64,000 bases of DNA from Shouchella oshimensis (GTDB lineage Bacteria; Bacillota; Bacilli; Bacillales; Bacillaceae_D): contig NZ_KV917380.1 in assembly GCF_002019765.1 (NCBI RefSeq), positions 2,638,667-2,702,666 of the forward strand, written 5' to 3'. Positions 5,288-37,417 of the stretch are shown here, piece by piece. Within the stretch, counting starts at the first letter, position 1. Each line of letters opens with the position of its first letter. Below the pieces are notes generated by a model. That model was not told the DNA's origin. It saw only the letters and a program-made list of their open reading frames with translations, and did no database searches. The position numbers and the translations under genes are program-made.

Positions 5288-5316
5288 GCATAATAAAAAG
5301 CCTCCCAATTGGGAAG
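5288..5316 (-). terminator. Rho-independent terminator after the 5322-5936 gene
   Basis: On the minus strand an imperfect hairpin (AAGC-TCCC paired with GGGA-GCTT) is followed by a T-rich stretch. It lies between the stop at 5322 and the tape measure start at 5260. Confidence 0.65.
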
Positions 5317-7902: not shown

Positions 7903-8360
7903 TTGCGCCCCCTATCGATCGTCCGTCTTAAAATTCGATCACCTGTCTGTTGAAAGTCCCTTTCTGTCACTCTAACAGCTCGCTCCATATATAGCCTACC
8001 CGGTCGTTCTCCACGAAAAGCAGGCTTATTATGTGTTCGTCTACCCTTACCGCTCACATAATATTTATCGCCCGGCAACTTGTCGTGTACACCCATTCTA
8101 GGAGGTTCATAATGTCTTCTTAAAGCGTACTTCGAAGAAGAACCACCTTCAAATTCAAACCCTTGTCCCTTTTTCTTCGGTGGATCAAAAGAGATAGAGT
8201 CCTCTAAATCCCCTTCATCATGATGTACAAGTGCTTTAGTTCCCTCTTCCAGCAACGAACTGTACTTGCCTAGCTCTTGAATGGCTGCGCGCTCAAACCT
8301 CTTAGGCATTGCCTTAAACTCTTTTTCAAGCTCTTTCAACCCTCGCCATTGAACGTTCAT
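7899..8360 (-). CDS. HK97 gp10-like head-tail connector protein
   Basis: 153 aa from the ATG at 8360; longer versions of the frame would overlap the whole next gene and are unlikely. Beginning VQWRGLKELEKEFKAMPKRF, it has the helical start and the basic C-terminus (GDRILRRTIDRGRK) of HK97 gp10 proteins, which help join head and tail. Its stop overlaps the next start by 4 bases. The ribosome site (TAGGCG) is weak and coupling to the upstream gene, whose stop is 11 bases away, is likely. Confidence 0.75.
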   Translation of the reverse strand: MNVQWRGLKELEKEFKAMPKRFERAAIQELGKYSSLLEEGTKALVHHDEGDLEDSISFDPPKKKGQGFEFEGGSSSKYALRRHYEPPRMGVHDKLPGDKYYVSGKGRRTHNKPAFRGERPGRLYMERAVRVTERDFQQTGDRILRRTIDRGRK

Positions 8361-8370
8361 AAAATCGCGC

Positions 8371-8712
8371 CTAGCCACCGTACACCGTCCTGAAATAGAC
8401 CTTCGATCCGCTAAGGTTCGTTGACTCTTCCCAGTTAACAACCTGAGCCTTGCGCTCCTGGCCGAATGTGTCTGTATACGAAATGGTTGAGTCGAAACCG
8501 AATTCAACATCAGGCGGTAAGTCAAATTCAATACTCGTTTTCTCTTCCACACCCTGACGGTTACGCACGACCCTAACTTTGTTTGTGACACGCGCTTTTG
8601 CCGGCGTTTCTTTAGGTGCTATAGGGCGACCGCGATTGTCCGTGATAGGATTGCCATTTTCGTCTAACTGCGTTGTCATGACGACTACATCGTCTCTCAT
8701 AGGAGGTTTCAT
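8371..8712 (-). CDS. Minor capsid / head-closure protein
   Basis: 113 aa, ATG at 8712 overlapping the stop of the upstream gene. It has a pattern of short beta strands (FGFDSTISYTDTFGQERKAQ) typical of phage stopper or minor capsid proteins that close the connector after packaging. Place: third of the four small genes between capsid and tail tube. No catalytic motif is seen. Confidence 0.75.
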   Translation of the reverse strand: MKPPMRDDVVVMTTQLDENGNPITDNRGRPIAPKETPAKARVTNKVRVVRNRQGVEEKTSIEFDLPPDVEFGFDSTISYTDTFGQERKAQVVNWEESTNLSGSKVYFRTVYGG

Positions 8713-9319: not shown

Positions 9320-10336
9320 TTATGGTGTAAATACATCCAAGTGTTTAACTAAGAATGGGTTTTCGAGTACAGGGAACCCGGCACCAACTGTTTCAACTAC
9401 AGACATTACAGGTTTTTTCTTATCTTCTGCTGTTAGCAAAATACCCGGTTGAAAGTTGTTCTCTAGTGTCGGGCCAAGAAGGTATTTACCTGCTCCGCTT
9501 GATGCCATAACAATCCGGTTAACCGGTAGGAATTCATTCGAAAGAGTGTCCGAAGTTTCGTTATCCTTATACGTTATAGCGCGGTCTAGCACTACCTCGA
9601 TTGAAGGCAAACCAAATTCCTGTAGCACGTTATTTAAATTTGCTTGAGACGCACGATTAGAACCCTCTGATCGACCAGCCTCTGCAATAATTTGCTCGTT
9701 CTTTAGCATCATTTGCAGAACCTGACGCGACATCAACATGGTTTCAGGAAGACGACGATTCAAATCGGAATATGCTTGAACTTGCTCTTCTAAGAAGCCT
9801 AAGATATCAAAGTCAGGTGAACTAAAGTCATTCCCACCTGTAAGAGCTACTTTGTTTTCAGCAGGAATACCAAAGTCAAAGTCAAATTTGATCTTGTTAC
9901 GGTTAGTGGATAGCTCCCCTTTACAAAGCGCCTCAGCTTTCGCCAATTGGATAAGGCGGCGCGTTGCATCAACAATATCTACAGCACGAACCGTAATGCG
10001 GTCAATTGCATCTTGATAGCGAGCATTATTTTGCGCCTCATGAAGCGCCTCGATCTCGCTATACGTTACGATGTCTTGTAGACCAAACTGGGCAATCTCA
10101 CCCATGTAAGAAGCAATTTCATTACGATCAACGGTCGGTGGTTCTGAACCTTTCCCGATGTAACCGGCTAGGAAATTATTTGTCTTGATGATGTCACCAG
10201 CAAAGTTACGCGAGAACACGTTCTCTGTTGGCAAAAAGCGATCAGCAAATGAAATAGGAGCATCTTGCTCCGACTCATCGACCAACGCACGAAGCGCTGG
10301 CTGTTGGAATTCTTCTAAGTGTGTAATACCTGGCAT
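9320..10336 (-). CDS. Major capsid protein (lambda gpE-like family)
   Basis: 338 aa, close to the 340-residue size of lambda gpE. It has the family start (PALRALVDE, SFADRFLPTENVFSRNFAGD), the middle helix AVDIVDATRRLIQLAKAEAL, and the C-terminal SAGKYL-like loop followed by an ENNFQPGI segment. It forms the T=7-type icosahedral shell. Context agrees: decoration protein before and adaptor genes after. It ends with CCA TAA, so the +1 shift motif seen in the tail tube gene is absent here. Confidence 0.93.
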   Translation of the reverse strand: MPGITHLEEFQQPALRALVDESEQDAPISFADRFLPTENVFSRNFAGDIIKTNNFLAGYIGKGSEPPTVDRNEIASYMGEIAQFGLQDIVTYSEIEALHEAQNNARYQDAIDRITVRAVDIVDATRRLIQLAKAEALCKGELSTNRNKIKFDFDFGIPAENKVALTGGNDFSSPDFDILGFLEEQVQAYSDLNRRLPETMLMSRQVLQMMLKNEQIIAEAGRSEGSNRASQANLNNVLQEFGLPSIEVVLDRAITYKDNETSDTLSNEFLPVNRIVMASSGAGKYLLGPTLENNFQPGILLTAEDKKKPVMSVVETVGAGFPVLENPFLVKHLDVFTP

Positions 10337-10385: not shown

Positions 10386-10775
10386 TTAGATGTGATTTAT
10401 ATAGCGAATAAGCGGTCTTGTAAGTTCTTTGAATTTCTCTGTTACCGTATCAGGAAGCTTTGCTTCATAAACTGATGCTTTGATAAGTACCTCACCAATG
10501 ATGACGTCATGTTTACCATCAACGTTTACATCAACATTTAATAACGCAAAATCATCATAACCCTCTGGCGCCTCTCCGCCTTCACCATCTGCATAAACCT
10601 CATATTTACCAGTATCAAGGTTCCGACAAACTGGCGTGCCAACAGGTAAGTATTTCGCTCCTGTATGCTCTGCATCGAGCGTAATACCGTGTTCAGTCCA
10701 CTGCAAATCTCGCGAAGCGAGGATATTGATACCGCCTTTAAATTCAGTACGGCCGTGTTTTAACGTATAAGACAT
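10386..10775 (-). CDS. Head decoration protein (lambda gpD-like)
   Basis: 129 aa. Features of the decoration family: an N-terminal strand LKHGRTEFKGGINILASRD, a Gly/Pro-rich beta domain (AKYLPVGTPVCRNLDTGKYE) and INHI at the end. It binds capsid three-fold sites and steadies the filled head. It lies between scaffold and capsid genes, as in phages that pair it with gpE-type capsids. Confidence 0.8.
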   Translation of the reverse strand: MSYTLKHGRTEFKGGINILASRDLQWTEHGITLDAEHTGAKYLPVGTPVCRNLDTGKYEVYADGEGGEAPEGYDDFALLNVDVNVDGKHDVIIGEVLIKASVYEAKLPDTVTEKFKELTRPLIRYINHI

Positions 10776-10778
10776 GTG

Positions 10779-11453
10779 TTATTCCCCTTTCCGATTTTTG
10801 TTTCGTCTTGCTTGGATACGAGCGTAAGAACTTTTACCAACCTCGTAACCATCTGGCTTTTTCGTTCTACTATTATTCTTTTGTTTCACTCCTGGTCCAT
10901 AACCAGATTTAGAAGATTCCTCTTCCTCCTCTTTTTCAGTGAAGTACTCTGGAAACTCTTCTGCTAGGTCTTCGAATAGCTCCTCTAAGTTCGTTGGTTC
11001 GCCATCATCATCTAATTCGATCTCATCAATACTGATAAGCTTAGCTGCGAGTTTAGCGTTGAACTTATTTTCCATAGCGTATTCTTTGACCGCTGCCCTC
11101 TTCTCTTTACGCTCAGCGCGGGCGAGACGCTTTCCGTACTCGTCCAACTTGGAATCTGATTTATTATCATCTTCTTCGTCGTCCGTACTTTTCTTGCCTG
11201 CAGCTTCTTGTTTAAGGCGCTCATATTCTTCAAGGTCAACGTCCTTGTATTTTTTCAAACGCTTCCCGAGTTTCCCCTTCATATCTGCCTCGTATTGTTT
11301 TTTAAACTCTGGATTCTTCAGTAATTCAACGAGGTCAGGAGTATCGTCTCCTTGATCGTCGTCTGAATCATCATCGTTATTATCCTCAGCAAACATTTGA
11401 AGGTTCATATCTAAACGTGGCGCTTTTTTCTCAAACAATGGTTTAGCAAACAT
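10779..11453 (-). CDS. Capsid scaffold protein
   Basis: 224 aa from the ATG at 11453 with AAAGGAG; the frame is open further upstream but without a ribosome site. Acidic, helical and low in hydrophobic residues, with long Glu/Asp runs (DNNDDDSDDDQGDD) and a basic end (RIQARRNKNRKGE) that would bind the capsid protein, the layout of DUF4355-type scaffolds. It precedes decoration and capsid genes. Confidence 0.85.
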   Translation of the reverse strand: MFAKPLFEKKAPRLDMNLQMFAEDNNDDDSDDDQGDDTPDLVELLKNPEFKKQYEADMKGKLGKRLKKYKDVDLEEYERLKQEAAGKKSTDDEEDDNKSDSKLDEYGKRLARAERKEKRAAVKEYAMENKFNAKLAAKLISIDEIELDDDGEPTNLEELFEDLAEEFPEYFTEKEEEEESSKSGYGPGVKQKNNSRTKKPDGYEVGKSSYARIQARRNKNRKGE

Positions 11454-11560
11454 AATCGTTCTCCTTTCATCTGCGCTTCTGGTGCGCGATCCCATTATTT
11501 ACTCGTACATGGTTAATGTTGCGTTGTGTCGCAGCACGGTTTGACACGACAAATAAGCCA

Positions 11561-12661
11561 CTATCCACTAGAGGCTTTTGCGTTTCGTTTGATTGCTCGC
11601 ATTTCTGCTTTCTTATCTCGAAAATTAAGCGAGTTGACTTTCTTCATACGTCTAAAGGCGCCTAATGTCTTAGGGGCATCATCACCTAGCAACATGACCA
11701 TTTCAGCGTATTGTTTTTTTTCTGCATTGCGCTGTACGCGTTGTTTCTGTTCTCGCTCATACGCTCTCTTTTGAGCAGGAGAGCGAACATCCTTTACAGG
11801 ATCAAACGCCTTCCACCGCTCTTGTTCTTCTCGTATTTCTTGAGGTGTCTTGTATTCCATCACGTAAGGCCTGCAAGTACAACGGCAGTTCGGATGAAAC
11901 GGCGGTAGCTTGATATTGTTGTCATTGATTGACGCAAACCCTTCATGCTCACCTGTTAAGCTCACGACTAAGTTTTGATACCGAGCGCATACCTGACACG
12001 TTTGCCCCTGACCGCTTATCTTGACGGTTGTCACTCCGTTTTCAGTGTAGCGATTGACAGCTCCTTTCGTGTTAGCATCCCTTAGTTTCGTTCGAACCAC
12101 TGTACTAGCGTAGAAGTCGATTGGTAACAATTTTCCATCAATGGTGCGGTGTCCGACAATGCCATGTTCTTTAAGCCTCTGACTGATACGAGCGGATATC
12201 ACACGGTTATGATCACCTTGAATGGAACCTCGCGCCATATCATCTTTAAACGTCTGTCTGACCTGATTAATATCTGCGGTCACGTAACTCTTTGCGACTT
12301 CGAGCGAAGCTCGTATGTCTTCCAATCCACTGTTTGTGATCTCAAATAACGCCTCTCGGTGTAACTTGCGCTGTAGAATGGGACGAATAACCGCTTGGTC
12401 ACTCTTCGCAATGACAGCGACCGCCAACCCCTCTTCTCGTAGCAACGCATTACCTGTAATCAAACCAGACGTGTACGCTTCTAAGATTTCGTTAGGCAAG
12501 ACTTCTTCAATGGCGATACCTAAACTATCGAGTGTGTCAGAGATCGAACGTATAAGCTCCTGCGCGCCTCTGTCGGTCGATAAACCTTCTACACTACCGA
12601 CGTTACGATAGATGTCCTCTAATGCTTCTGAGAAGTAGCGTAGGAGTTGGTCAATGTTCAT
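11561..12661 (-). CDS. Minor head protein, Mu gpF / SPP1 gp7-like (MuF)
   Basis: 366 aa. The MuF domain is seen near residues 180-270: a helix with VVRTKLRDANTKGAVNRY, then CQVCARY, then the hallmark PPFHPNCRCTCRPY. Such proteins ride inside the head, bind the portal and may enter the cell with the DNA. The start overlaps the portal stop by 4 bases. The tail after the MuF domain is basic and coiled (about 90 residues) with no toxin domain recognised. Confidence 0.9.
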   Translation of the reverse strand: MNIDQLLRYFSEALEDIYRNVGSVEGLSTDRGAQELIRSISDTLDSLGIAIEEVLPNEILEAYTSGLITGNALLREEGLAVAVIAKSDQAVIRPILQRKLHREALFEITNSGLEDIRASLEVAKSYVTADINQVRQTFKDDMARGSIQGDHNRVISARISQRLKEHGIVGHRTIDGKLLPIDFYASTVVRTKLRDANTKGAVNRYTENGVTTVKISGQGQTCQVCARYQNLVVSLTGEHEGFASINDNNIKLPPFHPNCRCTCRPYVMEYKTPQEIREEQERWKAFDPVKDVRSPAQKRAYEREQKQRVQRNAEKKQYAEMVMLLGDDAPKTLGAFRRMKKVNSLNFRDKKAEMRAIKRNAKASSG

Positions 12662-14256
12662 TCTTCATCGCTCGTCAACGGCTGGTCGCGGTTATCAAGG
12701 TAACTCGCTAAGGTGCCACCACCGAATGTATTAGGCGTTTCAGATGCCATTTCTAGGCGCTCTAGCTCTTGCTGTATCCATTCTTCTGATGCCAGAGGGT
12801 TACAGTTCCTTACGGTCGTTTCAAGGCTTTGTGTGCCTTTCTCGTAAGCCATCGCGTTCTCTTCTAGTAATTCCTTGCGGCTAATTGGGATCATAGAGCG
12901 AATTGCAATGTCCGGTTCCTCAATCATAACTGCGCTGTCCTCTTCCGCCATGAGCCACAAGATGTTTTCATAGAGCTGTTGAAGGAAGTAGATGTACTCG
13001 CTTTGAATCTGCTCCGCTTTTAGAATAGATGTTAAAAGATCGTAGAATTTCGCTACACCACTTTGAGCGGATGCGGTACCAGTTGACTCACCTAAGTAGT
13101 AATCAATTGCCTTCGAGCTTGTACGCGTTTCTGACAGAACCATCTGCATAAGGTTGCGCACAGTCTCAATGTCACCGATCTTACTCGTATCAATTTGAAT
13201 GATCTCAAGCGCTTTTCCGTTATCATCAAACGTTGTTATCTCTAAATCGCGATGATCAATCTTCTTCTCCGGGTTATCCTCTCCATAGCGTTGAGCCGCT
13301 AACTCTTCCAATCTGCTGAATACCTCTTCGCTCACTGCAATACGAGGTTTACCATTACGCTCAAAGGTTATGGCCGAGCGCGTCAATGTCCAGTTGATCT
13401 CATCCTGCTTCCCCTCTATGCCTTTAAGACAACTACGACCTAGCGGGTTACGGAATGTCTTTTCGTTTGCCCAATACACAACAAATGGACGGTTACGCCC
13501 TTTATATACCTTCTTGAGATCCTTCATACCAAGTAGCTGTTTCGATTCCTCTTCATCGACCGGGATAAACTCAGTGCTGTTGTCCTCACCCATAAAGAGT
13601 AGATGTTCGGTGTGTAGTCCGTCTTTCTCCACTCGTTCACGGTAAACGTGTAAAAAGCGGTCGTCATCGATCTTGCGGTCATAAACGAGATCAACGCCTA
13701 AATCGTCATCGTGCGGGAAATAAACGTCACGCTGTTTCATTTCCATACGCGGGCCCAGTTCATCGATCCATACACAACCAACTAAGCCACCATCTACCTG
13801 ATGCTGCACAATGTTCGTCCAGTGCTCGGTGCGCAGCTTGCTGTTCTTTTCAATCTGTTCAATGATCTCTTGTTGCGCGTCCAGTATTTCAGCGTTTAAC
13901 GAGTTGTCATCTGGTCCCTCTATCATGCTGTCCGTTTCGTCGTCCAGCTCTTCGATCTGTTCTTGTCGTCTTAGAAGCGAGGATGTAACAGAACCAATCG
14001 AGCGAGCAACGAGTACCGCAGGTATCTCCGGTATCAACTTACTCACATTCGCTATGATATAAGGCGTCTGTATTTGTTGTGCTACATGATTCCCCTCTGC
14101 TATTGCGTCTGTGATCTCGCCTTGTTGCACCAGTCGTTTAGCGCGAGGGAACAGTTCAATATGATTCCCTTCGTAAAGGTCCCGATACCGCTCAATACTG
14201 CCATGCGTCTCTTCTATGATGCTCTTGTCAAACTTGTCCCACGTTCGTAATGCCAT
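12658..14256 (-). CDS. Portal protein (SPP1 gp6-like)
   Basis: 532 aa. It forms the dodecameric ring through which DNA is packaged. Visible family features: the early IEETHGSIERYRDLYEGNH, the central FVVYWANEKTFRNPLGRSCL, the tunnel-helix region DYYLGESTGTASAQSGVAKF, and an acidic C-terminus. It lies 10 bases after terL and overlaps the MuF gene, the classic terminase-portal-MuF order. Confidence 0.92.
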   Translation of the reverse strand: MALRTWDKFDKSIIEETHGSIERYRDLYEGNHIELFPRAKRLVQQGEITDAIAEGNHVAQQIQTPYIIANVSKLIPEIPAVLVARSIGSVTSSLLRRQEQIEELDDETDSMIEGPDDNSLNAEILDAQQEIIEQIEKNSKLRTEHWTNIVQHQVDGGLVGCVWIDELGPRMEMKQRDVYFPHDDDLGVDLVYDRKIDDDRFLHVYRERVEKDGLHTEHLLFMGEDNSTEFIPVDEEESKQLLGMKDLKKVYKGRNRPFVVYWANEKTFRNPLGRSCLKGIEGKQDEINWTLTRSAITFERNGKPRIAVSEEVFSRLEELAAQRYGEDNPEKKIDHRDLEITTFDDNGKALEIIQIDTSKIGDIETVRNLMQMVLSETRTSSKAIDYYLGESTGTASAQSGVAKFYDLLTSILKAEQIQSEYIYFLQQLYENILWLMAEEDSAVMIEEPDIAIRSMIPISRKELLEENAMAYEKGTQSLETTVRNCNPLASEEWIQQELERLEMASETPNTFGGGTLASYLDNRDQPLTSDEE

Positions 14257-14266
14257 GTGTCACCTC

Positions 14267-15544
14267 CTACCAAGGGTTTGTTGAACTTAACCCTGCTTTC
14301 TTTGCAAATATAATGGTGTTCACAAAATAACGATCACCGTCCATGTGATGATCGTTTTGTTTGATTGGTTTATCTTCGCCACGTTTAGCCGCTTTCTGAT
14401 CCCACGTATAGGAGCTGAACTCCTTAAATGTTTCAATGCAACAATCGTTGTAGAGAATGAGCATACGATTCAGCGCGCTTGCTACGTTCTGAATCCCGTT
14501 TGCTACATCGTTCTTTGCATCTTGCACCCTAAAGCTATCTCTTTTAAGCTGAGCCTTAAAGCTAGCAGCAGATGGATCGACAATCACAGAGGATATGCGA
14601 TAACCGCTTGTAAACTCTTTTAGATCACGGCTATACTCAACGTCTGTCTTCTGTTTGCCTTTCTCGCGACCATCGTAGTGATATTCTTTCACCTTATACC
14701 ACGTGTTCTTTTCCTTGCCCCACAATCCAAATGTCGTAGGGTTCTGCGTTCCGTAGTCAATCGATACATAAAACTGCGAATAGCGCCGTTCCTCTGTAGG
14801 TACGACGTGATCATCTTTATTAAACATGTCATAGATAACGCCCTCAGCGAGTACCCATAGACCTAAGATATAGCGCTTATAGAATATGCCCGTGTACATC
14901 CGCTTGTATCGCTCTTTAATCGCTTTTGAGAGCGAAAGGTTATCATCCATCGTAAAGTGTAAATGTAGCAGTCTTTTTTCGTGCTTAAGATCAAGAAACT
15001 TCGTTTTGAACCAGTGATGCGGTCCAGCAGGGTTGCAGTTATACCACATCTTCGACCCATCCACCGAACAACGCGCGGTTGCTTGGTTAACAAATGATTC
15101 AGGCATAAGCGCGACCTCATCAAAGAACATACCCGCAAGGGTAATACCTTGGATTAAGTCCTGACTACTTTCGTCCTTACCACCAAAGATATAGAAGTAA
15201 TTCGTCTTGCCTCTGAATGAAATGGACAAATAGTTGTCTGCGCGGTGATCCTTAACGCGATAGCCCCTTGACTTGAGCATTCGCTTTAACGGCGTGATAA
15301 CGTTCCGTCTAAGCGCTCCTATCGTCTTACCGGACATACCTAAGTTTTCCTCATTGAATGTCTCCATTGCCCACATAATGTAGGAGAGAGACATCACAAC
15401 CGTCTTACCCGCTCGGACTGAACCATCACATATGATGCCATCGTTATCTTTAAAAGGCGATGCTTCATGCCACCAGGTTAATACCTTGAATTGCTTCGTG
15501 CTGAACGGCTTAAATTTAAACAGCGCAGGTTTAAGCTTCTTCAT
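14267..15544 (-). CDS. terL: Terminase large subunit
   Basis: 425 aa from the ATG at 15544 (CAGGTG before it; the GTG at 15562 is an alternative). It has the ATPase with Walker A near residues 40-48 (GSVRAGKT), Walker B MFFDEVALM, a coupling motif after it, and a C-terminal RNase H-like nuclease with SIDYGTQNPTTFGLW, VIVDPSAAS and the late His-Asp motif HHMDGDRYF. It packages and cuts the DNA concatemer. It overlaps terS by 14 bases. Confidence 0.95.
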   Translation of the reverse strand: MKKLKPALFKFKPFSTKQFKVLTWWHEASPFKDNDGIICDGSVRAGKTVVMSLSYIMWAMETFNEENLGMSGKTIGALRRNVITPLKRMLKSRGYRVKDHRADNYLSISFRGKTNYFYIFGGKDESSQDLIQGITLAGMFFDEVALMPESFVNQATARCSVDGSKMWYNCNPAGPHHWFKTKFLDLKHEKRLLHLHFTMDDNLSLSKAIKERYKRMYTGIFYKRYILGLWVLAEGVIYDMFNKDDHVVPTEERRYSQFYVSIDYGTQNPTTFGLWGKEKNTWYKVKEYHYDGREKGKQKTDVEYSRDLKEFTSGYRISSVIVDPSAASFKAQLKRDSFRVQDAKNDVANGIQNVASALNRMLILYNDCCIETFKEFSSYTWDQKAAKRGEDKPIKQNDHHMDGDRYFVNTIIFAKKAGLSSTNPW

Positions 15545-16331
15545 CGTTCCACACCTGCTCACTAGCGCCCTTTATCGCATCCATAAAGCCGTCATCTTCG
15601 TACTCTTCTTCATCATTAGAGAGGAGACTGACTTCCGCTTTTGTTTTGTTAACGTTAAGCTGCAACTGTTCTAACTTGAGTCTGCGAGTATCATCTTCGT
15701 GCGCCATGTCGTTAAACTGTTTAATGGATGAGCGCAATTCTGCTATCGCCCTTGATTGCGCGCTCAAAAAGTTCGCTTGCTTATCCCACGCATATTGATT
15801 GTCGTATTGAAGTTCTTCTGCAAAAGCAACCTTTACCAAGTTACCTTCTGAATCAACTTTCAAGCCACCCTTTACTTTCGTGAGCGCTTTTGTAGAATCA
15901 TTAGCATCATTCACCCACATAATCTTTTGAGAACGCAAAATTGCAGCGTATTGTATTTGTATCTGATCCCATAAGAGATCAACAGGGTTTGCATCTTCAA
16001 GCATGCCGATGATCTCCAATGTTTCTTTTGGCATATAACGAGAAAAAAGCCCGTGCTTTAGCGCGGCGCTGTTCCGTTCGGTAAATTGATTTTGTGGGTT
16101 AGGGTTGCCACTCCTCTTTTTCTTGGACTGCTTAGATTCCTTAGGGGTTGCATCCCTAATTCGATTGGTTGCAACCTTAGTTGCATCCTCCCCCTTGGTT
16201 GCATCCCTTTCCCAACCCTCACGACTCTTCCTACTCTTGAGCGTCCCTAGCTTCGCTCCATGCTTTTCAGCTAATGCTTTTAAGGTGATGGTGGTTGTCT
16301 CGTATTCTTCTCTTATCTCTTCCCAGTTCAT
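15531..16331 (-). CDS. terS: Terminase small subunit (PBSX/skin XtmA-YqaS type)
   Basis: 266 aa. It starts at an ATG with AGGGGGCAGG before it. An N-terminal helix-turn-helix (WEEIREEYETTTITLKALAE, then KHGAKLGTLKSRKSREGWER) binds the packaging site; a repeated Asp-Ala-Thr stretch and basic linker follow; then the conserved NAAALKHG-like step (NSAALKHGLFSRY) and an oligomerisation part of long helices. Resemblance to the skin/PBSX small subunits agrees with the sigK location. Confidence 0.88.
   Translation of the reverse strand: MNWEEIREEYETTTITLKALAEKHGAKLGTLKSRKSREGWERDATKGEDATKVATNRIRDATPKESKQSKKKRSGNPNPQNQFTERNSAALKHGLFSRYMPKETLEIIGMLEDANPVDLLWDQIQIQYAAILRSQKIMWVNDANDSTKALTKVKGGLKVDSEGNLVKVAFAEELQYDNQYAWDKQANFLSAQSRAIAELRSSIKQFNDMAHEDDTRRLKLEQLQLNVNKTKAEVSLLSNDEEEYEDDGFMDAIKGASEQVWNDEEA
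16147..16206. repeat. Four GTTGCA(T/A)CC repeats inside terS
   Basis: Copies begin at 16147, 16168, 16180 and 16198, with spacings that are multiples of three. They encode recurring Asp-Ala-Thr or Ala-Thr. Phage packaging sites are often inside the small terminase gene, so this is a candidate pac recognition region, though protein-level repetition alone could explain it. Confidence 0.55.
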
Positions 16332-20570: not shown

Positions 20571-20746
20571 CTTGCTCGCTCCTCTCCGCACTCTTTACAC
20601 GTCTGTGTCCATTTGCCTTTATAAACCTTTAGCTTGTATTTACCTGCGCCGCATTTGCATCGCCCATGCCTCATTCTGACCTCCGGCTCAGGAGCAGGAC
20701 CTTCTCTCTGCTCCCTTACCGCATCAGACCAACGTGGTTTCGGCAT
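20567..20746 (-). CDS. Tiny zinc-ribbon protein
   Basis: 59 aa. Its ATG shares a base with the TAA of the dUTPase gene (TAATG), pointing to coupling. The N-terminal half is Pro/Glu-rich; the C-terminal half is a zinc ribbon with CKCGAGKYKL and CKECGEER. One of several such proteins in this early operon. Confidence 0.7.
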   Translation of the reverse strand: MPKPRWSDAVREQREGPAPEPEVRMRHGRCKCGAGKYKLKVYKGKWTQTCKECGEERAR

Positions 20747-21315
20747 TAATAGCCGTTTGCTTGCCGTTCATGGTTGATTTTGTTCTTTTGTAGATAAGCT
20801 GCTTCTACTTCTTCCCACGAAAAGCGAAGTGTTGTACCTAGCCCAAAGAAATCTTTCAACAATGCTTCATAAGCATTTCTGTATTTTTGACTTTCATACC
20901 CGCCCGCAAAATCCATAGCATCTATGTCGTTAACTCTTGCAAATACGGTTAAAAACTGTTGTCTAGGTATTGAGTGCAACACTTTGAAAGGCATTTCATA
21001 CTCTATCTGGAACTTATACTTTTCCATTAATGAATTACCGATACTTAACAAAAAGTGCAGACAGTCTACGTATTCTTCAAGAAGTGGATTCCATTCACGC
21101 ACAGGCATTTCGTATAAGTCTTCAAATTTGTACGTTCTTGGTTCCTGATCCTCGCTCCAGAACTTAAACCCTCTCCACTCGTTGGCGCACTCTCCTAGCT
21201 CTACGAGTAACGCTAGGATGCGATCAGCCAGCAAATCTTGACCGTGTAAGCCTTTCTTTTCGATGATTGCTTGGTCTAACTCTGCTTGGATCTTGAATAG
21301 CCGCTGTAGGTTCAT
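20746..21315 (-). CDS. dut: Dimeric all-alpha dUTPase (dUTPase_2 family)
   Basis: 189 aa. It hydrolyses dUTP to dUMP and keeps uracil out of phage DNA. Family motifs: LLVELGECANEWRGFKFW (Glu metal ligands with the following aromatic), then EEYVDCLHFLLSIG (Glu and Asp of the second metal site). The length is usual for the MazG-like dimeric class of Gram-positive phages. It overlaps the gene upstream by 4 bases. Confidence 0.9.
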   Translation of the reverse strand: MNLQRLFKIQAELDQAIIEKKGLHGQDLLADRILALLVELGECANEWRGFKFWSEDQEPRTYKFEDLYEMPVREWNPLLEEYVDCLHFLLSIGNSLMEKYKFQIEYEMPFKVLHSIPRQQFLTVFARVNDIDAMDFAGGYESQKYRNAYEALLKDFFGLGTTLRFSWEEVEAAYLQKNKINHERQANGY

Positions 21316-25491: not shown

Positions 25492-26328
25492 TTATGCCTC
25501 CAAGTCTTTCGCAAAGTTTATTAAACGCTCTTTCGCAAGCTCTTTTCGATAGCTCGTTGCTTTATTTTCAATCGTGATACACATTTCACTTAGCCGATCC
25601 ACTGAACGTCCACCGATCTTCTCATGCAGTTCAGATGGCTTGAGGTTGCTTGTGTAGAAGATTGGGCGCTTTTTTCGATAACGGTGGTCTATGATGCCAA
25701 AGAACGTTTCTTCTACCCACTCAGTCACCTTTTCAGCCCCTATATCGTCCAAAACTAGCAAGTCGCATGTTACCAATGCCCTTATCACTTCGTCGTATTT
25801 AAAGTTGCTCTTATCGCCAAACGTGCTCTTGAGCTTGTCCAACATATCTTTTGTCGTTTGGAAAACAACCGTATGCCCTTTACTGTTTAATTCATTTGCC
25901 ACTGCTGCAGCTATATGACTTTTACCGTTGCCGTAGCTACCCCAGATTCCTAAAGATGTACCGCCGAACTCTTCAAACTCATTCACGTATTTCCGCGCCG
26001 CTTTAAATGGCTTTTCCGTTCCTGATCGATGAATGAAGCTTTCAAACGTTGAGTTGGCGAATTTCTCACCCATCGTCGAGATATTAAACAAACGCTTAGT
26101 TGTTTTATCCTGTACAAATCGCTCTCTCTTAATCTCTTCTTCTTTCATTTTTCGAGTCACACATTCGCAAACCGGTTGGACAATCTTTTTTCTGTTCATG
26201 ATCTCTATTTCAATCTGGCGGATAAACTCCCCGCAATGGGGACATTCAGCCCCGCCGTCTTTAGAGGGAAAGTTCGTCGTATTCTGCTCCATCACTTGGC
26301 TTATTGCCCTTGCTGTTGCCTGAATCAA
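25492..26328 (-). CDS. Helicase loader, DnaC/DnaI type
   Basis: 278 aa from a TTG at 26328 preceded by AAGGAGG. The N-terminal zinc domain has CPHCGEF and CECV pairs. The AAA+ core shows Walker A GSYGNGKSH, Walker B LLVLDDIGAEK, sensor 1 FYTSNLKPSEL and the arginine finger region GGRSVDRLSEM. It loads the replicative helicase at the phage origin, as lambda P or DnaI. It overlaps the initiator gene by 68 bases in another frame. Confidence 0.92.
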   Translation of the reverse strand: MIQATARAISQVMEQNTTNFPSKDGGAECPHCGEFIRQIEIEIMNRKKIVQPVCECVTRKMKEEEIKRERFVQDKTTKRLFNISTMGEKFANSTFESFIHRSGTEKPFKAARKYVNEFEEFGGTSLGIWGSYGNGKSHIAAAVANELNSKGHTVVFQTTKDMLDKLKSTFGDKSNFKYDEVIRALVTCDLLVLDDIGAEKVTEWVEETFFGIIDHRYRKKRPIFYTSNLKPSELHEKIGGRSVDRLSEMCITIENKATSYRKELAKERLINFAKDLEA

Positions 26329-27031
26329 CCTTAACGCCTCCTTTTCTAGACCAAGACTTTATTGTGAAGTAGTGGCTTTTGTATCTTCTTCCTGTACTGC
26401 CTATATAGTCGTTAAGCCTAATCATTAGTTCTCTTGTTATATCTTTTCCAAGGTCATCAACGAGTTTGTTAAGTTCGGATTCCGTAAGTTTGACGAAGTC
26501 AAAATAGAGATTTTTCTTTTCTTCTTCTTTTTGTTCTTCTTTTTCTTCTTCTTCTTTTTCTTCTTCTTGTTGAATTTTTTCCGACGTATCGTGGTACGTA
26601 TCGTGGAAAGCCTTACTATACGTATCGTAGATGGTTTTTAGCTTCTGATTTTCAATTGAATCACTCACATACTCGATTAACGTTTTATCTTTGACCTGAG
26701 AAAGCTCTTTTTTGACGCAATCCTCAACTGGCTTCCCTCCACGATTAAGGTTATATTTCCCCCAGTTTTTTATAGCGATCTCTTTCGTTAGATCGTTGTA
26801 TTTAATTAACTTGTGATGGTTGATAAAGCGATCAAATAGAGACTTGATACTCTCTGGTGAATAACCAATCTCGAAAGCCGCAACCTTTTTCATAAGCTCA
26901 TAGATGCCTGTTTGAGTTGTATGTTTGTTTGTAAGCAGATATAGGAAGAACAGCTTGTCCTCTGGTGTAAGTTCCTCAGTCACTTTAGGATCATCCCAAA
27001 ATTTCGTTTGTACCTTTCTGAATTTAGCCAT
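26261..27031 (-). CDS. Replication initiator (phage O / DnaD-like replisome organiser)
   Basis: 256 aa. The N-terminal winged-helix part matches phage replisome organisers: MAKFRKVQTKFWDDPKVTEE, LFFLYLLTNKHTTQTGIYEL. Then a linker containing DTYHDTSEK and a long Glu/Lys run, and a C-terminal DnaD-like part (GRRYKSHYFTIKSWSRKGG). It would bind the origin and bring the loader encoded next door. The gene carries DNA repeats that may be the origin itself. Confidence 0.85.
   Translation of the reverse strand: MAKFRKVQTKFWDDPKVTEELTPEDKLFFLYLLTNKHTTQTGIYELMKKVAAFEIGYSPESIKSLFDRFINHHKLIKYNDLTKEIAIKNWGKYNLNRGGKPVEDCVKKELSQVKDKTLIEYVSDSIENQKLKTIYDTYSKAFHDTYHDTSEKIQQEEEKEEEEKEEQKEEEKKNLYFDFVKLTESELNKLVDDLGKDITRELMIRLNDYIGSTGRRYKSHYFTIKSWSRKGGVKVDSGNSKGNKPSDGAEYDELSL
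26510..26630. repeat. Candidate replication origin: three iterons beside a purine/pyrimidine-rich stretch
   Basis: ACGTATCGTGG or ACGTATCGTAG at 26584-26594, 26596-26606 and 26620-26630, next to a long TTCTTC-rich stretch (26513-26578) in the initiator gene. Lambda places its origin inside the O gene in the same way. Alternative: the repeats only reflect repeated His-Asp-Thr-Tyr codons. Confidence 0.6.
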
Positions 27032-27112: not shown

Positions 27113-27168
27113 CTAATATTTGTTCGTGTTATTTCTAAGTCACTGTTCTCAGCAGTGGCTTTTTTGTT
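27099..27168 (+). ncRNA. Candidate OOP-like short RNA antisense to the antirepressor 3' end
   Basis: Plus strand: extended -10 TGGTATACT (core 27099-27104), then about 58 bases ending in the hairpin GTCACTG-TTCTCAG-CAGTGGC followed by TTTTTT. The hairpin covers the stop codon of the minus-strand antirepressor gene. Lambda OOP RNA has the same position between cII and O. Confidence 0.5.
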
Positions 27169-27877
27169 TGTCCAAAACTTCTAAAAGCTTAATTTGACCT
27201 TTTCCAGTCACCATCGTAGTTAGTGATTGAACATCACCTTCTGTTCGTTGTACTAGCGTAGGAACTGATACGAACCACCCACTATCAACGTATTGTTGCT
27301 TAGGATTATTCTTTTCTCTTCCTGTCTTAATCAAATATCCATTATCCCTTAACCACTTAAACATCTTATTACGTCCAAAACTGATACCTTTTTCTTCAAA
27401 CACCATCTTGCAAAAAGCTCCGACATTCAAGTGGGCATCACTAGTAGAGACAGCCTTTCCAAAAGTCGTATATGGCTTGTCCATTTCAATTTGCAACTGC
27501 AAGTTATTTACTCGCTTATCTGCGATTTGCAACGCTCTAGCCATCACTTGTTCAGGGCTATTCCACGCTTTCTCTAATTGCAAGAAATACTTACGGGCTT
27601 TCTTGCCTATGTCAGTCCTTTGCAACATTAAAATCTCTTTTGCCATATCTATACGTACCTTATGATCAGAAACTGTATGTTCTCGTCCGTGCGATGTTAC
27701 TTTTTTTTGAGTAACATCAAAATAATCCACATTTTTAACAAACCCGTAATCTGCCATTCTTGTAAACCAATCAAGATATTTTGTCTTCACTTGCAGAAAT
27801 TCGTGCAATTCTCTTCCTGATACAAATAAATCTCCAGACTCTTCATCATGAGTAGTGTTTATCAGTAACTCCTGCAC
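27149..27877 (-). CDS. Phage antirepressor, AntA plus KilAC domains, GTG start
   Basis: 242 aa, GTG at 27877 with AAAGGAGTG. The N-terminal AntA/AntB domain is seen in SGRELHEFLQVKTKYLDWFT and KVRIDMAKEILMLQRTDIGK; the C-terminal KilAC domain in NVGAFCKMVFEEKGISFGRN and MFKWLRDNGYLIKTGREKNN. Such proteins counter the phage repressor during induction. It is transcribed from the switch at 28.3 kb. A 3'-overlapping antisense RNA is predicted. Confidence 0.9.
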   Translation of the reverse strand: MQELLINTTHDEESGDLFVSGRELHEFLQVKTKYLDWFTRMADYGFVKNVDYFDVTQKKVTSHGREHTVSDHKVRIDMAKEILMLQRTDIGKKARKYFLQLEKAWNSPEQVMARALQIADKRVNNLQLQIEMDKPYTTFGKAVSTSDAHLNVGAFCKMVFEEKGISFGRNKMFKWLRDNGYLIKTGREKNNPKQQYVDSGWFVSVPTLVQRTEGDVQSLTTMVTGKGQIKLLEVLDKQKSHC

Positions 27878-32767: not shown

Positions 32768-32868
32768 ATGCTTAACCACCCAATAGCTAAAATCGCTCCT
32801 AGCCCTATGCAAATGATCCTATCTACCAACAACTGAGCGTTTGTGATTTGCTTCGACTTATCGCTCAT
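32764..32868 (-). CDS. Tiny single-pass membrane protein
   Basis: 34 aa, ATG at 32868 with GAGGTGATC. After a polar start (MSDKSKQITNAQLLVD) comes one helix, IICIGLGAILAIGWLSI, ending the protein. Overlaps the neighbours by 4 bases on both sides, so it is part of a coupled chain with the Gam-like gene. Confidence 0.65.
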   Translation of the reverse strand: MSDKSKQITNAQLLVDRIICIGLGAILAIGWLSI

Positions 32869-33419
32869 TTGATCACCTCAAGACTAAACTTGTCAGGGCG
32901 TGGCGTTACCTCTACACCCGGTATCTGTTCACCGTTCTCGTCGATCAGTACGTTTCCTACAACCTTCCCTGCCTTTTTAACAGCAGTCCAGTCAGTTGAT
33001 TCCTTCACCTTGACCATTTCATTCGCCTTGGCATATTTAAAGAGCATGTCCTCATCTTTCGTAAATTCAGGCTGTTGTTTAACCATTTTCAGCTTCACGT
33101 TTGGTAGTTCGATGGATTTCTTTTTCAGCCCACCTTCCAATTGCTCTCGAAGGAAAAACTCTAATCGATGCGTGTAAAATTGCTCGGATTCCGGATAAGG
33201 TCTTTTAGCCTCTTCTGCCCACTCTTTCAAGCGATTCTCCTTGTTTTTGAGAGCTTCCAATTGACTGTCGATCATATCTTGAATATCTTGTTGCTTACCT
33301 TTGTGGTACATGATGCGAGAGTCAGCTACCAATGCATCCTCCATATTTGATACGGTAAAGTCCTCAGCCTGCTCACCATCGTTTACAATTGCTTCAACCT
33401 GCTTCTGTAATTCAGTCAT
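32865..33419 (-). CDS. Host-nuclease inhibitor Gam-like / recombination-associated protein
   Basis: 184 aa from the ATG at 33419 with TGGAGG. Long N-terminal coiled coil, then the step KRPYPESEQFYTHRLEFFLR and a C-terminal part with KKKSIELPNVKLKMVKQQPE, as in Mu Gam-type (PF07352) proteins that shield DNA ends from host nucleases. It pairs with the annealing-protein gene just upstream. Confidence 0.75.
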   Translation of the reverse strand: MTELQKQVEAIVNDGEQAEDFTVSNMEDALVADSRIMYHKGKQQDIQDMIDSQLEALKNKENRLKEWAEEAKRPYPESEQFYTHRLEFFLREQLEGGLKKKSIELPNVKLKMVKQQPEFTKDEDMLFKYAKANEMVKVKESTDWTAVKKAGKVVGNVLIDENGEQIPGVEVTPRPDKFSLEVIK

Positions 33420-33450
33420 ATTTAGTTCCTCCATTGGCTCTAATTTGTGT

Positions 33451-33509
33451 TATAATCGGCGTAACAGTTTTTGAGTAGGACGCTTTGTAGTGGGAGCGTC
33501 CTATTTTTG
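33451..33509 (+). ncRNA. Candidate short RNA antisense to the 3' end of the annealing-protein gene
   Basis: Plus strand: extended -10 TGTTATAAT (core 33451-33456), then about 45 bases to a hairpin AGGACGC-12-GCGTCCT followed by ATTTTTG. The hairpin contains the stop codon of the minus-strand gene at 33501. Same design as the candidate at 27099-27168. Confidence 0.5.
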
Positions 33510-34103
33510 TTCCTCATTGGTTTCTACCGCTTTTTTCTGTGCTTGCGTATACCAATTCTCTAATTGTTTTATAACTTGTTCTGCTTGCCCCTTAGTCAAT
33601 TGGCTTAAATCAGTTATGTTCATTTTTCCAAAGACCGTAGCTAAATCAGTACCGCGTAATTCCGCCAATTCCATTGCTGTGCTTTTGATATTCTCGATTA
33701 ACTGTTCACCTGGCTTTTCTTCATCCACCATCGGTAAATCTTCTCCTGCATAGATGTATAACCCTAAGCCATGTAACGCTATTGCTTTAACTAAACAACG
33801 TTGAATGCTCGTATTGATATCGAAAGCAGTAGGCTTCTCTATCGGCTTGTTGAAGTTGTTTAATACTGGGTGTATCTGAGACATCGGAATGCCATTACTT
33901 GTGACTTCTACCTCTACAAAATATCCTAGCTCTGTCTTCATAAAAGGCTTATCATCGAAACGTTTAACTTCCCACTTTGCATTAGGATCATGTCGTCTGA
34001 GTTGATCCACTGCCCATGCCCATGATAGATAGCTGAACTTCCCTTTCTTCTCAACATGCTTTGATACATCAATTTCTGCTAACTTTTGAAAATGATTGTC
34101 CAT
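33501..34103 (-). CDS. Single-strand annealing protein, DUF1071 (Sak3-like)
   Basis: 200 aa, ATG at 34103 with AGAGGAGG. Family features: KGKFSYLSWAWAVDQLRRHD, YFVEVEVTSNGIPMSQIHPV, then FDINTSIQRCLVKAIALHGL. Proteins of this group anneal complementary strands during phage recombination, working with Gam and SSB, all encoded nearby. The C-terminal 60 residues are helical and variable. Confidence 0.85.
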   Translation of the reverse strand: MDNHFQKLAEIDVSKHVEKKGKFSYLSWAWAVDQLRRHDPNAKWEVKRFDDKPFMKTELGYFVEVEVTSNGIPMSQIHPVLNNFNKPIEKPTAFDINTSIQRCLVKAIALHGLGLYIYAGEDLPMVDEEKPGEQLIENIKSTAMELAELRGTDLATVFGKMNITDLSQLTKGQAEQVIKQLENWYTQAQKKAVETNEEQK

Positions 34104-34454: not shown

Positions 34455-34709
34455 TTATATTACTTCCGTGTACCCAATACACACATTCGATAAAAAAAAT
34501 AAATCATCGAATTTTTTATCTTTGAACACTGATAACGATCCAGTTATAAAATCCTCACCGGGGTAACAAAAATTTGAATGCGTTACAGGTAGCTTAGCTC
34601 TCCACAATCTACTTCGAGAAATCTTCATCTTTCTTGCTAGCTCACTATTATTGAGACCCATTTCTTTTTGAGCTCTTTCGAAAGCTTCAATATCTAGAAC
34701 AATCTTCAA
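34455..34709 (-). CDS. Cro-like helix-turn-helix protein of the immunity region, TTG start
   Basis: 84 aa; the TTG at 34709 follows GAGAGGAGG at seven bases. The helix-turn-helix NNSELARKMKISRSRLWRAK starts near residue 20; the rest is a short beta part. It is divergent from the repressor-like gene at 34868 and first in the minus-strand early operon. Confidence 0.75.
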   Translation of the reverse strand: MKIVLDIEAFERAQKEMGLNNSELARKMKISRSRLWRAKLPVTHSNFCYPGEDFITGSLSVFKDKKFDDLFFLSNVCIGYTEVI

Positions 34710-34740
34710 ATTCAAACCTCCTCTCCTTACGTTTCGTCTC

Positions 34741-34840: not shown

Positions 34841-34867
34841 CTTATAACATTGATAGAGGTGTTTATT

Positions 34868-35230
34868 ATGGAAGCTAAAAAACTCGGTACATACATTGCC
34901 AAGCTCCGAAAAGAAAGTGGATTTAAAAGCCAACGTCAATTAGCAGAAGCAAGTGGTTTATCTAATGGAACCATTGCGCGTATTGAAAACGGAACACAAA
35001 AACCATCTATGGAAACTTTGTCTACTTTGTCTAAGCATTTAAAAGTGGAATTAATTGATTTATATACAAATGCAGGTTATTTACTCGAAGCTAACGATCT
35101 GCGAGATAATAGCGACAAGAAGAAAGTTTACTTTGATGATGAATACGGAGAAATTACCGAAGAGGAAAGACAGGAACTTGCTAAGCACCTTAAATATTTA
35201 AGATGGCAAGCAGAACAAAATAAAAATTAA
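34868..35230 (+). CDS. CI/SknR-like prophage repressor
   Basis: 120 aa from the ATG at 34868 with AGAGGTG. Helix-turn-helix: YIAKLRKESGFKSQRQLAEA, then SGLSNGTIARIENGTQKPSM; the C-terminal 45 residues form an acidic helix pair (EEERQELAKHLKYLRWQAEQ), the size and layout of ImmR/SknR-type repressors. Last prophage gene before the sigma-K fragment, the same place as sknR near the spoIIIC end of the B. subtilis skin element. Confidence 0.85.
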   Translation: MEAKKLGTYIAKLRKESGFKSQRQLAEASGLSNGTIARIENGTQKPSMETLSTLSKHLKVELIDLYTNAGYLLEANDLRDNSDKKKVYFDDEYGEITEEERQELAKHLKYLRWQAEQNKN

Positions 35231-35280
35231 AGACCACCTTATAGGTAGTCTCATGTTAAATATTTCCGTTTACTTTGTGA

Positions 35281-35300
35281 CATCAAAACGGAGATTCTCA
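35281..35300. other. Predicted prophage/sigK junction (attachment half-site)
   Basis: Homology to sigma-K in frame begins with GAG ATT CTC ATG CAT (Glu-Ile-Leu-Met-His) at 35291. In B. subtilis the crossover lies in the codons for Glu-Asn-Glu just before Ile-Leu-Met-His. Here the bases before it are AAAACG, compatible with a shared core, but the partner site is outside the window. Confidence 0.65.
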
Positions 35301-35665
35301 TGCATTTGCGAGCATTAAAAAAAGTAAAGAAAGACGTATCTCTTCATGATCCCATTGGAACGGACAAAGAAGGCAATGAAATTTCTCTTATCGATATTTT
35401 ACAAGAGGATGCAGACGATATCGTTGACATTTTGCAAGCGGAAATGGAAAAAAAGCAAATTTATGAATACATTCATGTGTTAGATGAGCGAGAAAAAGAG
35501 GTGGTCATTGGTCGCTTTGGTTTAAATATGGAGGAGGAGCGTACCCAAAGAGAAATTGCGAAAGAATTAAAAATCTCTAGAAGCTATGTTTCCCGGATTG
35601 AGAAACGAGCACTAATGAAGTTATTTCATGAATTTTATAAGCACAGCCGTGGCAAGGGGAATTAA
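35300..35665 (+). pseudogene. sigK: C-terminal half of sigma-K (spoIIIC-type fragment of a split sigK)
   Basis: 121 codons counted from the internal Met codon. It matches mature sigma-K from the segment [20 protein letters not shown] on: [13 protein letters not shown], the region 3 helix, then region 4 ([40 protein letters not shown]). Region 2 and the pro-sequence are missing. On its own it cannot act; joining to an N-terminal half (spoIVCB part) after excision of the prophage would restore a late mother-cell sigma factor. Listed as pseudogene only because it is a gene fragment; it is probably functional after rearrangement. Confidence 0.93.
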
Positions 35666-35942
35666 CCTCCTTGCTTTTTTATTTTTTGATAAAACTCGAG
35701 ACAAAACGCTACAGTACTCTTTACATATATGTATAAGCACAGCCTGTTTCTCAAGGGGGTTTGTCTCTTTAGAGTGGAAGCAAATGCTCCCCAGTAAAAA
35801 TAGCCCTGATTAAAGAATGAGCGTACAGTTCATCATTATTGTAAAAAAATTGTGCTCGGTGTTGATAGATCGTAAGGGGACCCATTCGCAAGCCCCCTAA
35901 CATTGTTCCTGAAACCTCTTTTTTAATATCTCACTGATTTAT
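35666..35942. other. Intergenic stretch between the sigK fragment and the coat-like gene
   Basis: 277 bases without a supported gene. It starts with CTCCTTGC and a T-rich run and holds short inverted pieces (AGGGG/CCCCC near 35876-35904), but no clear strong terminator for sigK and no RNA gene I can recognise. Confidence 0.5.
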
Positions 35943-35979
35943 AAAAAAGTGTATCAGGTTTTAGCCCAATACACTTTTA
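35943..35979 (-). terminator. Terminator after the 35981-36469 gene
   Basis: Minus strand AAAAGTGTAT, 14-base loop, ATACACTTTT, followed by further T. Confidence 0.85.
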
Positions 35980-35980
35980 G

Positions 35981-36469
35981 TTAGAAAAAGTAAAGGGGAT
36001 AGAAGTACGGAAAAAATCCTATACCGCCAAATCTACCAAAGGGGAAAAACCGTGGGCGATACCGACGAAATCTCCAACCGCCATATTGACGACCTTCTTC
36101 ATGATGGGTGTCTTCGCCCACTAACAGCATAACGCCATCCTCGCGAATTTCTGTTAAAATTCCGTCTACGGATTGACCATCAGACATCTTTAATTCGACA
36201 TGGTGATCTTTCATTTGTTGGCATTGATCTTTTAATGCTCCTTGAAAATGCTGAGTATTTGCTTGAGCATATGACTGTTGATTCGAATGCATATGAGAGT
36301 GTCCATTGTTCGTTTGTTGTACGTGATGCATCTGCTGATACTCATTTGTTTGATGAGGTACAAATCCATTGGAAACTTCGTATGAATTTCTATTCAATTG
36401 ATCGGTATCATATTGCGTCGTGTTTGTTTGATATGGATACTGGAAATACCCATTGTAAAAAGTATTCAT
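35981..36469 (-). CDS. Spore coat-like protein with Gln/His/Tyr-rich start and aromatic tail
   Basis: 162 aa from the ATG at 36469 with AAAGGAGTG; the frame is open 36 bases further. Residues 1-85 are low complexity (Tyr, Gln, Asn, His, Met); residues 86-125 form a small Sm-like beta fold (HHVELKMSDGQSVDGILTEI, then REDGVMLLVGED); the tail is Arg/Phe/Tyr/Gly-rich (RYRPRFFPFGRFGG). Such composition is usual for coat or surface proteins of Bacillus spores. A coat role is inferred; the neighbour sigK would be a suitable regulator. Confidence 0.6.
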   Translation of the reverse strand: MNTFYNGYFQYPYQTNTTQYDTDQLNRNSYEVSNGFVPHQTNEYQQMHHVQQTNNGHSHMHSNQQSYAQANTQHFQGALKDQCQQMKDHHVELKMSDGQSVDGILTEIREDGVMLLVGEDTHHEEGRQYGGWRFRRYRPRFFPFGRFGGIGFFPYFYPLYFF

Positions 36470-36669
36470 TTCTTTCACTCCTTTTTCTAGAACTAGTGTA
36501 TTCACCTAGACCTTGTCAGGTACGTTGCCTATGAACTTTTTTATCCAACTTTTTTAAGTTGCATCTAAACGTTGCTATGTCATAGTAGAGTATAAGAGTT
36601 GTTAAGAAATAGACTTAGTTTAAAGTGTTAATATGTTGTTACAAAAACACATAATGGAGAGGGTAGTTT

Positions 36670-37167
36670 ATGAAAACCAAGTTAATTATCTTAAGGGGCA
36701 ATTCAGGGAGTGGAAAAACTACAACTGCAAAATGCCTTCAGAATCATTTAGGGCAAGGAACTCTTTTGGTTTCTCAAGATGTTGTTCGTCGTGATATGTT
36801 AAAGGTTCACGATAGAGACGGAAATCCATCAATTGATTTAATATACAGGATTGCAGAATACGGAAAAGGTAAGTGTGAATTTGTAATTGTAGAAGGAATT
36901 TTTAATAAAATTCGATATGGTGAGATGCTTAAAAACTTAATCCAATACTATAATCAAGAGGCATATATATATTATTTCGATTTATCTTTTGAAGAAACAG
37001 TCGAACGTCACAACACTCGTACTAAAAAGGCGGAATTTGGCGAAGAATCTTTACGTGCCTGGTGGACTGCCAAGGACTACCTTGAAGTGCAGGGAGAAAT
37101 GCTATTTACTAACGACATGTCGCAAAAAGAAGTACTAGAGCAGATTTTGAATCAAATTCAAAAGTGA
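36670..37167 (+). CDS. P-loop kinase (zeta-toxin/AAA_33-like)
   Basis: 165 aa, ATG at 36670 after ATGGAGAGGG. Walker A RGNSGSGKTTTAK at residues 9-21; FVIVEGIFNKIRYGEML in the Walker B place; LID-like RHNTRTKKAEFGEESLRAWW. These are features of small nucleoside or aminoglycoside-like kinases whose substrate is unknown. It sits alone between two unrelated genes. Confidence 0.75.
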   Translation: MKTKLIILRGNSGSGKTTTAKCLQNHLGQGTLLVSQDVVRRDMLKVHDRDGNPSIDLIYRIAEYGKGKCEFVIVEGIFNKIRYGEMLKNLIQYYNQEAYIYYFDLSFEETVERHNTRTKKAEFGEESLRAWWTAKDYLEVQGEMLFTNDMSQKEVLEQILNQIQK

Positions 37168-37417
37168 TTATACATGAGACATAAGATTTGGTCGTGAAGC
37201 TTTAAAGAATACGAAACTGGCTAATAACGTTGCGGGATTTTTCCATTTTAATGTCACAAAGTAAGCAGGAATATTAACAGAGTTGTTAATTTTCTATTTG
37301 TTCTGCTTGCAAAGAAACTTTCACTACGATACATATTTAGAAGGAAACGAATCCCTCGATTTACCGGAGTAAAATGAGTATACTAGTAAGTGTACGAGTA
37401 CGGAAGGGAGTTCTACT

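Follow-up and report, generated by a model that had tools for sequence, protein, structure and literature searches.

Why should a piece of the sigma-K gene lie directly behind the repressor-like gene of a prophage? The question is raised by a stretch of 64,000 nucleotides from Shouchella oshimensis (hereafter the window, G000:C1:2638667-2702666), G000 being the source genome, a single contig of 4.06 Mb. A preliminary description of the window had recognised the frame that follows the repressor as the 3' part of sigK, without region 2 or pro-sequence, and had proposed that the prophage splits sigK in the manner of the skin element of Bacillus subtilis while perhaps remaining a live phage. The frame was correctly recognised, and the two portions that it lacks were found in a 5' half outside the window:

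34850-35230, plus strand: Cro/C1-type repressor-like protein, with an identical protein in the element of genome G031
35300-35665, plus strand: sigK 3' part with region 4 (121 aa; Sigma70_r4, E 1e-16)
L001:4345-4719 (G000:C1:2616344-2616718), plus strand: sigK 5' part with pro-sequence and region 2 (Sigma70_r2, E 1e-17)

The two parts lie on the same strand, the 5' part 57 kb to the left at the far end of the prophage, where the preliminary description had suggested that it be sought. Past the methionine of ENEILM it runs on for eight further residues and then stops. When the halves are joined at their common GAGATTCT, an in-frame, continuous pro-SigK of 236 aa results, and the segment removed by this join, 57,277 bp in length, is the element. 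A genome-wide search with the joined protein returned the two halves as best matches (98 and 94% identity), followed at 48% by a match at 1696229-1696849, which is taken as sigE; beyond the halves, this search of the one-contig genome gave other sigma factors only and no second sigK. A full-length sigK elsewhere, coupled with the lack of an N-terminal half at the left prophage end, was looked for in the genome and did not occur. In the congener G037 sigK is uninterrupted and represents the empty site, its flanks aligning on both sides of the G000 element (the alignment to the joined G000 region runs up to base 4692 and resumes from base 61952). Because the sigK of this congener is unbroken and its flanks match both sides of the element, chance likeness is excluded. 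The same evidence bears on a reading of 35300-35665 as a phage-borne sigma-like gene and not a piece of the host gene. Its position directly after a phage repressor gene would fit such an origin, but with the N-terminal half at the other prophage end, a join that yields full SigK and an empty site in a congener, this reading can for practical purposes be regarded as ruled out. Our literature search, with subscription literature mostly outside its scope, gave no statement on Shouchella sigK among the matches listed. Directly right of the sigK 3' part lies a segment of 1.66 kb (window 35683-37339) that is absent from this place in G030, G031, and G037; a P-loop kinase gene within it (36670-37167) has a relative inside the G030 element.

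What could remove the element from sigK? At the left end, where a SpoIVCA-like large serine recombinase had been anticipated, such a gene adjoins the sigK 5' half and converges on it, and a short second frame overlaps its start:

L001:4716-6215, minus strand: large serine recombinase (499 aa; resolvase, recombinase, and zinc-ribbon domains)
L001:6112-6318: Skr-like frame of 68 aa, overlapping the recombinase start by 104 nt in another frame

As a query, the recombinase finds itself as the sole match in G000 at E<=0.001, and it shares 99% identity with the S. miscanthi AK13 recombinase. We take the SpoIVCA label from the integrase of Alicyclobacillus phage MMB025 (46.7% identical over 99% of the query; its family as given in PMC13141910) and from the shared target gene, not from B. 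subtilis SpoIVCA. We are confident that the sequence is a sigK-intervening, excisable element of the SpoIVCA type, here in prophage form. The short frame is called Skr-like from its layout as set against the description of B. subtilis Skr, the skin excision factor (64 aa with a 101-nt overlap, according to the accessible part of PMC6957869), and not against the Skr sequence, and its excision activity is putative. A Skr-like overlapping ORF was present at all 15 recombinase loci examined of the 25 found, with lengths of 64-94 aa and overlaps of 77-125 nt; MMB025 is one of the 15, and its annotation lists no such gene. Four columns are invariant in an alignment of nine of the 15 proteins. Over 24 non-overlapping codons, pN/pS in the Skr-like frame was 0 to 0.29 in seven in-register, differing pairs of the nine run, as compared with 0.57 to 2.86, where defined, for the other two frames of the same pairs, which have sequences in common and are not independent. 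The pairs left out were L019/L039 (pN/pS 0.84, with an indel that breaks the register) and L001/L017 (identical).

The place of the crossover can be narrowed down by comparing the two junctions:

35291-35298, plus strand: attR, GAGATTCT, common with attL at L001:4681-4688
35291-35292, plus strand: inferred crossover dinucleotide GA, from attL/attR comparison

The element is inserted right after the codons for IEN in sigK, and the comparison points to a crossover at GA within the ENEILM codons. GA falls at the same codon on both sides in 10 of 10 attL/attR combinations from nine genomes, and the attP arms deduced from them form inverted repeats around it (in G012, for example, TGACATTAGAATA-GA-TATTCTAATGTCA). 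Across these 10 junction pairs 106 of 130 arm positions match as a palindrome, the best shifted centre reaching 6.4 of 13 against 10.6 at GA; 0 of 20000 shuffles reached the observed count, a figure that is no probability because the shuffles ignore the kinship of the sites. The junctions are not independent, as attP is common to G000 and G031 and G012 contributes two. The three Shouchella sites, in whose attR the register was placed by hand on the ILM codons, have the lowest palindrome scores (9 of 13 each).

Is the cargo between these junctions a phage? The ORFs of at least 50 aa in the element number 96 (greedy, non-overlapping; 30 scanned with PHROGs and others with Pfam) and include the following, assigned by family match unless another basis is given:

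34455-34715, minus strand: small HTH DNA-binding protein, divergent from the repressor (E 1.2e-5)
33501-34103, minus strand: Sak-like single-strand annealing protein
32865-33434, minus strand: Mu Gam-like end-protection protein
27149-27877, minus strand: anti-repressor (Ant-like)
26261-27031, minus strand: replisome organiser, DnaD/DnaA-like
25492-26328, minus strand: DnaC-like helicase loader
20746-21315, minus strand: dUTPase
15531-16331, minus strand: terminase small subunit
14267-15562, minus strand: terminase large subunit, 75% identical to the phage D6E terminase
12658-14256, minus strand: portal protein
11561-12661, minus strand: minor head protein
10779-11495, minus strand: head scaffolding protein
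10386-10775, minus strand: possible head decoration protein (best match phrog_11771, of unknown function; decoration family E 4e-5)
9320-10336, minus strand: major capsid protein
7899-8591, minus strand: neck/tail-completion protein
7480-7902, minus strand: second minor head protein
6929-7480, minus strand: Ig-domain protein, perhaps the major tail protein from its place
1-5308, minus strand: tape measure protein of 1946 aa, extending left of the window (L002:8134-13974)

Further matches in the element are Dit, a tail endopeptidase, a fibre-like protein, and an endolysin. The capsid and tail genes look intact, as the preliminary description had surmised. Its view that the late genes recall those of skin and PBSX finds no support: a search for the tail sheath (PF04984) at E<=0.01 gave no match in G000, G030, or G031, with B. 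subtilis, which does match, as the control, and the portal is nearest, at 45-53% identity, to those of TP-84/PM1-type phages (TP-84, vB_GthS_PK2.1, vB_BpsM-61, and PM1 at 49-53%, with 50.8% for vB_BpsM-61). On these two grounds a PBSX kinship of the phage body is not supported. The sheath family is likewise absent among the matches listed for the 30 PHROGs-scanned proteins. From Dit, the tail endopeptidase, and the tape measure together with the missing sheath we infer a siphophage-like body; one of the portal relatives, vB_BpsM-61, bears a myophage-style name. A head-module search of IMG/VR found a record (L050) 100% identical to G000 over 17.8 kb and another provirus (L051) with a capsid protein 97% identical; no SpoIVCA-like match was found in the 52.9-kb record of the latter, which is possibly a fragment.

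We lean toward the view that the element is a live phage, judging from its gene content. A rival to this part of the reading alone is that the element excises in sporulation but holds no functional phage, and is instead a well-preserved skin remnant. No holin was recognised (L002:565-1005 matches a PHROG named tail protein and L002:221-664 is without match), and the skin elements of B. subtilis and Clostridioides difficile make no particles, as stated in the available part of PMC13141910. The terminase, portal, scaffold, capsid, tape measure, Dit, tail endopeptidase, endolysin, replication, and regulatory genes speak against a remnant, all being open frames with family matches, and we hold this alternative to be a distinct but somewhat doubtful possibility.

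Other genes were observed in the prophage. These include a terpene-synthase-like gene (L001:6960-7907, minus strand; PF19086, E 6e-31), a gene for a SpoIIM-family membrane protein (L001:9319-9963, minus strand), and an ArsR-like regulator with a glyoxalase-fold gene, presumably ArsI-like (L001:11291-12071, minus strand), which are common to the decayed element of G030. The B. subtilis skin element carries ars genes too. A ResIII-domain helicase with a partner frame (L001:14478-16445, plus strand) is a possible defence gene, and Padloc, applied to 10 element proteins, gave weak matches in four, namely the helicase (restriction-type models), an SspD-like protein, and two marginal cases.

How might prophage and developmental switch be combined? 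The window is best read as holding the right-hand part of a temperate phage, 57,277 bp long as integrated in Shouchella sigK. By analogy with B. subtilis skin, the recombinase and the Skr-like directionality factor would be made together in the mother cell and the element would leave as a circle through a crossover at the GA dinucleotide; the restored sigK would give pro-sigma-K, which would turn on the late spore genes, and the spore's own chromosome would retain the element. In growing cells the phage, with its genes for replication, packaging, head, tail, and endolysin, would be kept silent by the repressor at 34850-35230, and on induction it would enter lytic growth through the excision step that also serves sporulation.

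A temperate phage may also integrate in a gene and break it for good, in which case there would be neither mature spores nor developmental excision. Scans with a sigma-E consensus revealed no promoter above shuffles, which would fit a permanent disruption (the best score was reached by 118-163 of 200 shuffles upstream of the Skr-like ORF and by 175-179 of 200 upstream of the sigK 5' half). Yet purifying selection acts on the recombinase and on both sigK halves, dN/dS being 0.01-0.04 among three Shouchella genomes (0.014-0.040 for the recombinase, about 0.01 for the sigK halves); host flank genes range over 0.02-0.15, one of them (0.022-0.038) lying near the recombinase value, and selection on phage integrases in their own right may be an alternative source of the low recombinase figure. 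Moreover G030, in whose element blastp finds no match to the head, tail, or repressor genes of G000, still keeps the recombinase, the Skr-like ORF, and the sigK halves. We judge permanent disruption to be very improbable and retain developmental excision as the preferred reading.

The congeners provide a series of element states. The G031 element, of 52 kb, has a recombinase 98.8% identical to that of G000, the same Skr-like protein, and the identical repressor, whereas its capsid belongs to another PHROG family, its portal shares the PHROG family of the G000 portal with no blastp match, and its terminase, minor head, and tape measure proteins are only 22-24% identical. Its ten scanned proteins include terminases, portal, scaffold, capsid, tape measure, Dit, a tail protein, and an endolysin, and it appears to be a second, complete-looking phage. 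The 21-kb element of G030 has a recombinase at 99% identity, a Skr-like frame with one residue changed, and sigK halves whose proteins are 99-100% identical; blastp gave no match to the structural (head, tail) genes or repressor of G000, no phrog_2 terminase was found between its sigK halves, and transposase-like frames were seen by eye. It would seem to be a decayed remnant. The kept pattern of recombinase, Skr-like frame, and sigK is as expected if the host requires excision, which is not proof. Three forms of the switch occur in one genus, namely a prophage that looks intact, another such prophage whose structural genes differ, and a decayed remnant, and there are empty-site congeners as well. 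This series makes testable both the passage from live phage to domesticated developmental element and the competition of sporulation and lytic induction for one excision step.

How widely is the site used? Among the 41 genomes of the family, sigK is unbroken in 32, split at the ENEILM site in five (G000, G030, G031, G012, G028), and split at about residue 140 in two (G024, G025); in G018 the sole sigK match is a 3' part that starts at about residue 61 and lies next to another recombinase, and no sigK was seen in G003. The five family genomes with sigK split at the ENEILM site, and none of the others, carry a recombinase of 49% identity or more. A sample of 397 genomes across the order contains 20 with the recombinase at E<=1e-90 (identities of 46-100%). 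G000 and G031 are among the 20, and sigK is split at the same site in 17 of the 18 others; the exception, G156, has an intact sigK and the recombinase elsewhere. Both halves lie on one contig in 17 of the 22 split genomes, 2.0 kb (G210) to 58 kb (G342) apart; in 16 of these the halves run in the same direction, and in one (G411) they are inverted. The recombinase is found at either end and in either orientation. The coordinates place a large terminase (phrog_2) between the sigK halves in five of the 22 (G000, G031, G068, G074, G267), and probably in G028 too; a phrog_2 match occurs anywhere in the genome in 11 of the 22, and frames of the size of a terminase, portal, and capsid are seen by eye in G342. 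We consider it likely that the ENEILM codons of sigK are an order-wide landing pad at which the Skr-like factor, the SpoIVCA-like recombinase, the GA crossover, and the TGACATTAGAAT-type arms are kept under selection for host development, with the cargo exchanged (whole phages, decayed remnants, or a bare recombinase). If this is true, a phage that brings the unit of Skr-like frame and recombinase makes host sporulation depend on the phage. The Skr-like frame at 15 loci and the GA crossover provide concrete parts to test.

Several single loci deserve mention. The smallest sigK element, of about 2 kb, consists of the recombinase and one 70-aa frame (L055, G210:C6:518000-524000). The sigK halves of L057 (G411:C7:448000-463500) are opposed, and set against its sister G202 this genome has the 5' half turned round while both outer flanks are colinear; site-specific inversion, not excision, would then restore sigK, or the arrangement reflects misassembly or a local rearrangement. 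By eye, this segment includes genes for uronate isomerase and TRAP-transporter-like proteins. In G020 (L026) and G007 (L027-L028) an intact sigK is followed, after 1.6 kb or 16 kb, by a second and closely similar 3' part, and G007 has a truncated serine recombinase frame (L027:5587-5883); these extra 3' parts are perhaps the scar of an element lost from the other sigK site at about residue 140. In G025 a pair of similar sigK 3' parts, separated by 1 kb, adjoins runs of N (L025:9277-10840), which reflects either a tandem duplication or an assembly fault. A closely similar element of about 7 kb occurs in different families, at sigK in G282 (L056) and away from the intact sigK in G156 (L062), which is due either to transfer or to contamination. 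Finally, G084, G110, G133, G193, G220, and G388 each have three SigK matches, the best with an E-value like that of a half gene, which suggests further split sigK genes without this recombinase type.

Where does the Shouchella element stand among known systems? The B. subtilis skin element is 48 kb long, carries SpoIVCA and Skr, is defective and PBSX-like, and has its insertion point near the NE codons with the core AATGA. The present element resembles it in splitting sigK, in its SpoIVCA-type recombinase, and in the Skr-sized frame over the recombinase start, whereas its phage body appears siphophage-like with no sheath match, skin being compared by description. Intervening elements are an established kind, with skin, the C. 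difficile element, and SPbeta in spsM among them, as far as the accessible parts of the sources go (PMC4191935, PMC5025042, PMC6957869, PMC10745906, PMC5595907, PMC10747680). The C. difficile skin also intervenes in sigK and has both a serine recombinase and CD1234 as excision factor, but it lies at another site and in the opposite orientation, and over its first 300 residues the recombinase is described as 24% identical to SpoIVCA (PMC5025042, available part). SPbeta, as presented in the portion of PMC4191935 at hand, is a live phage whose mother-cell excision restores a spore gene, a likeness to the G000 phage as deduced from its genes; it differs in its target gene and in SprA, with 26% identity to SpoIVCA. 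Clostridium perfringens phage phiS63 is cited in the accessible text of PMC13141910 as an inducible phage in sigK, and shares that location with the present one. The closest parallel in kind is Alicyclobacillus phage MMB025, reported in the same text as a contractile-tailed phage of 105 kb in sigK from which infectious particles were isolated, with the core TCTC. Both have a complete or complete-looking phage in sigK, a related integrase, and an overlapping Skr-like frame; the tail type, size, and reported core of MMB025 are different, and TGACATTAGAAT-type arms are not visible by eye in its attP region. That a sigK element can be a live phage is as an idea already in print, to go by the available part of the MMB025 article (PMC13141910), with phiS63 cited there; what is added here is the unlisted Skr-like frame in MMB025 and other loci, the GA crossover obtained by comparison, and the series of cargo states.
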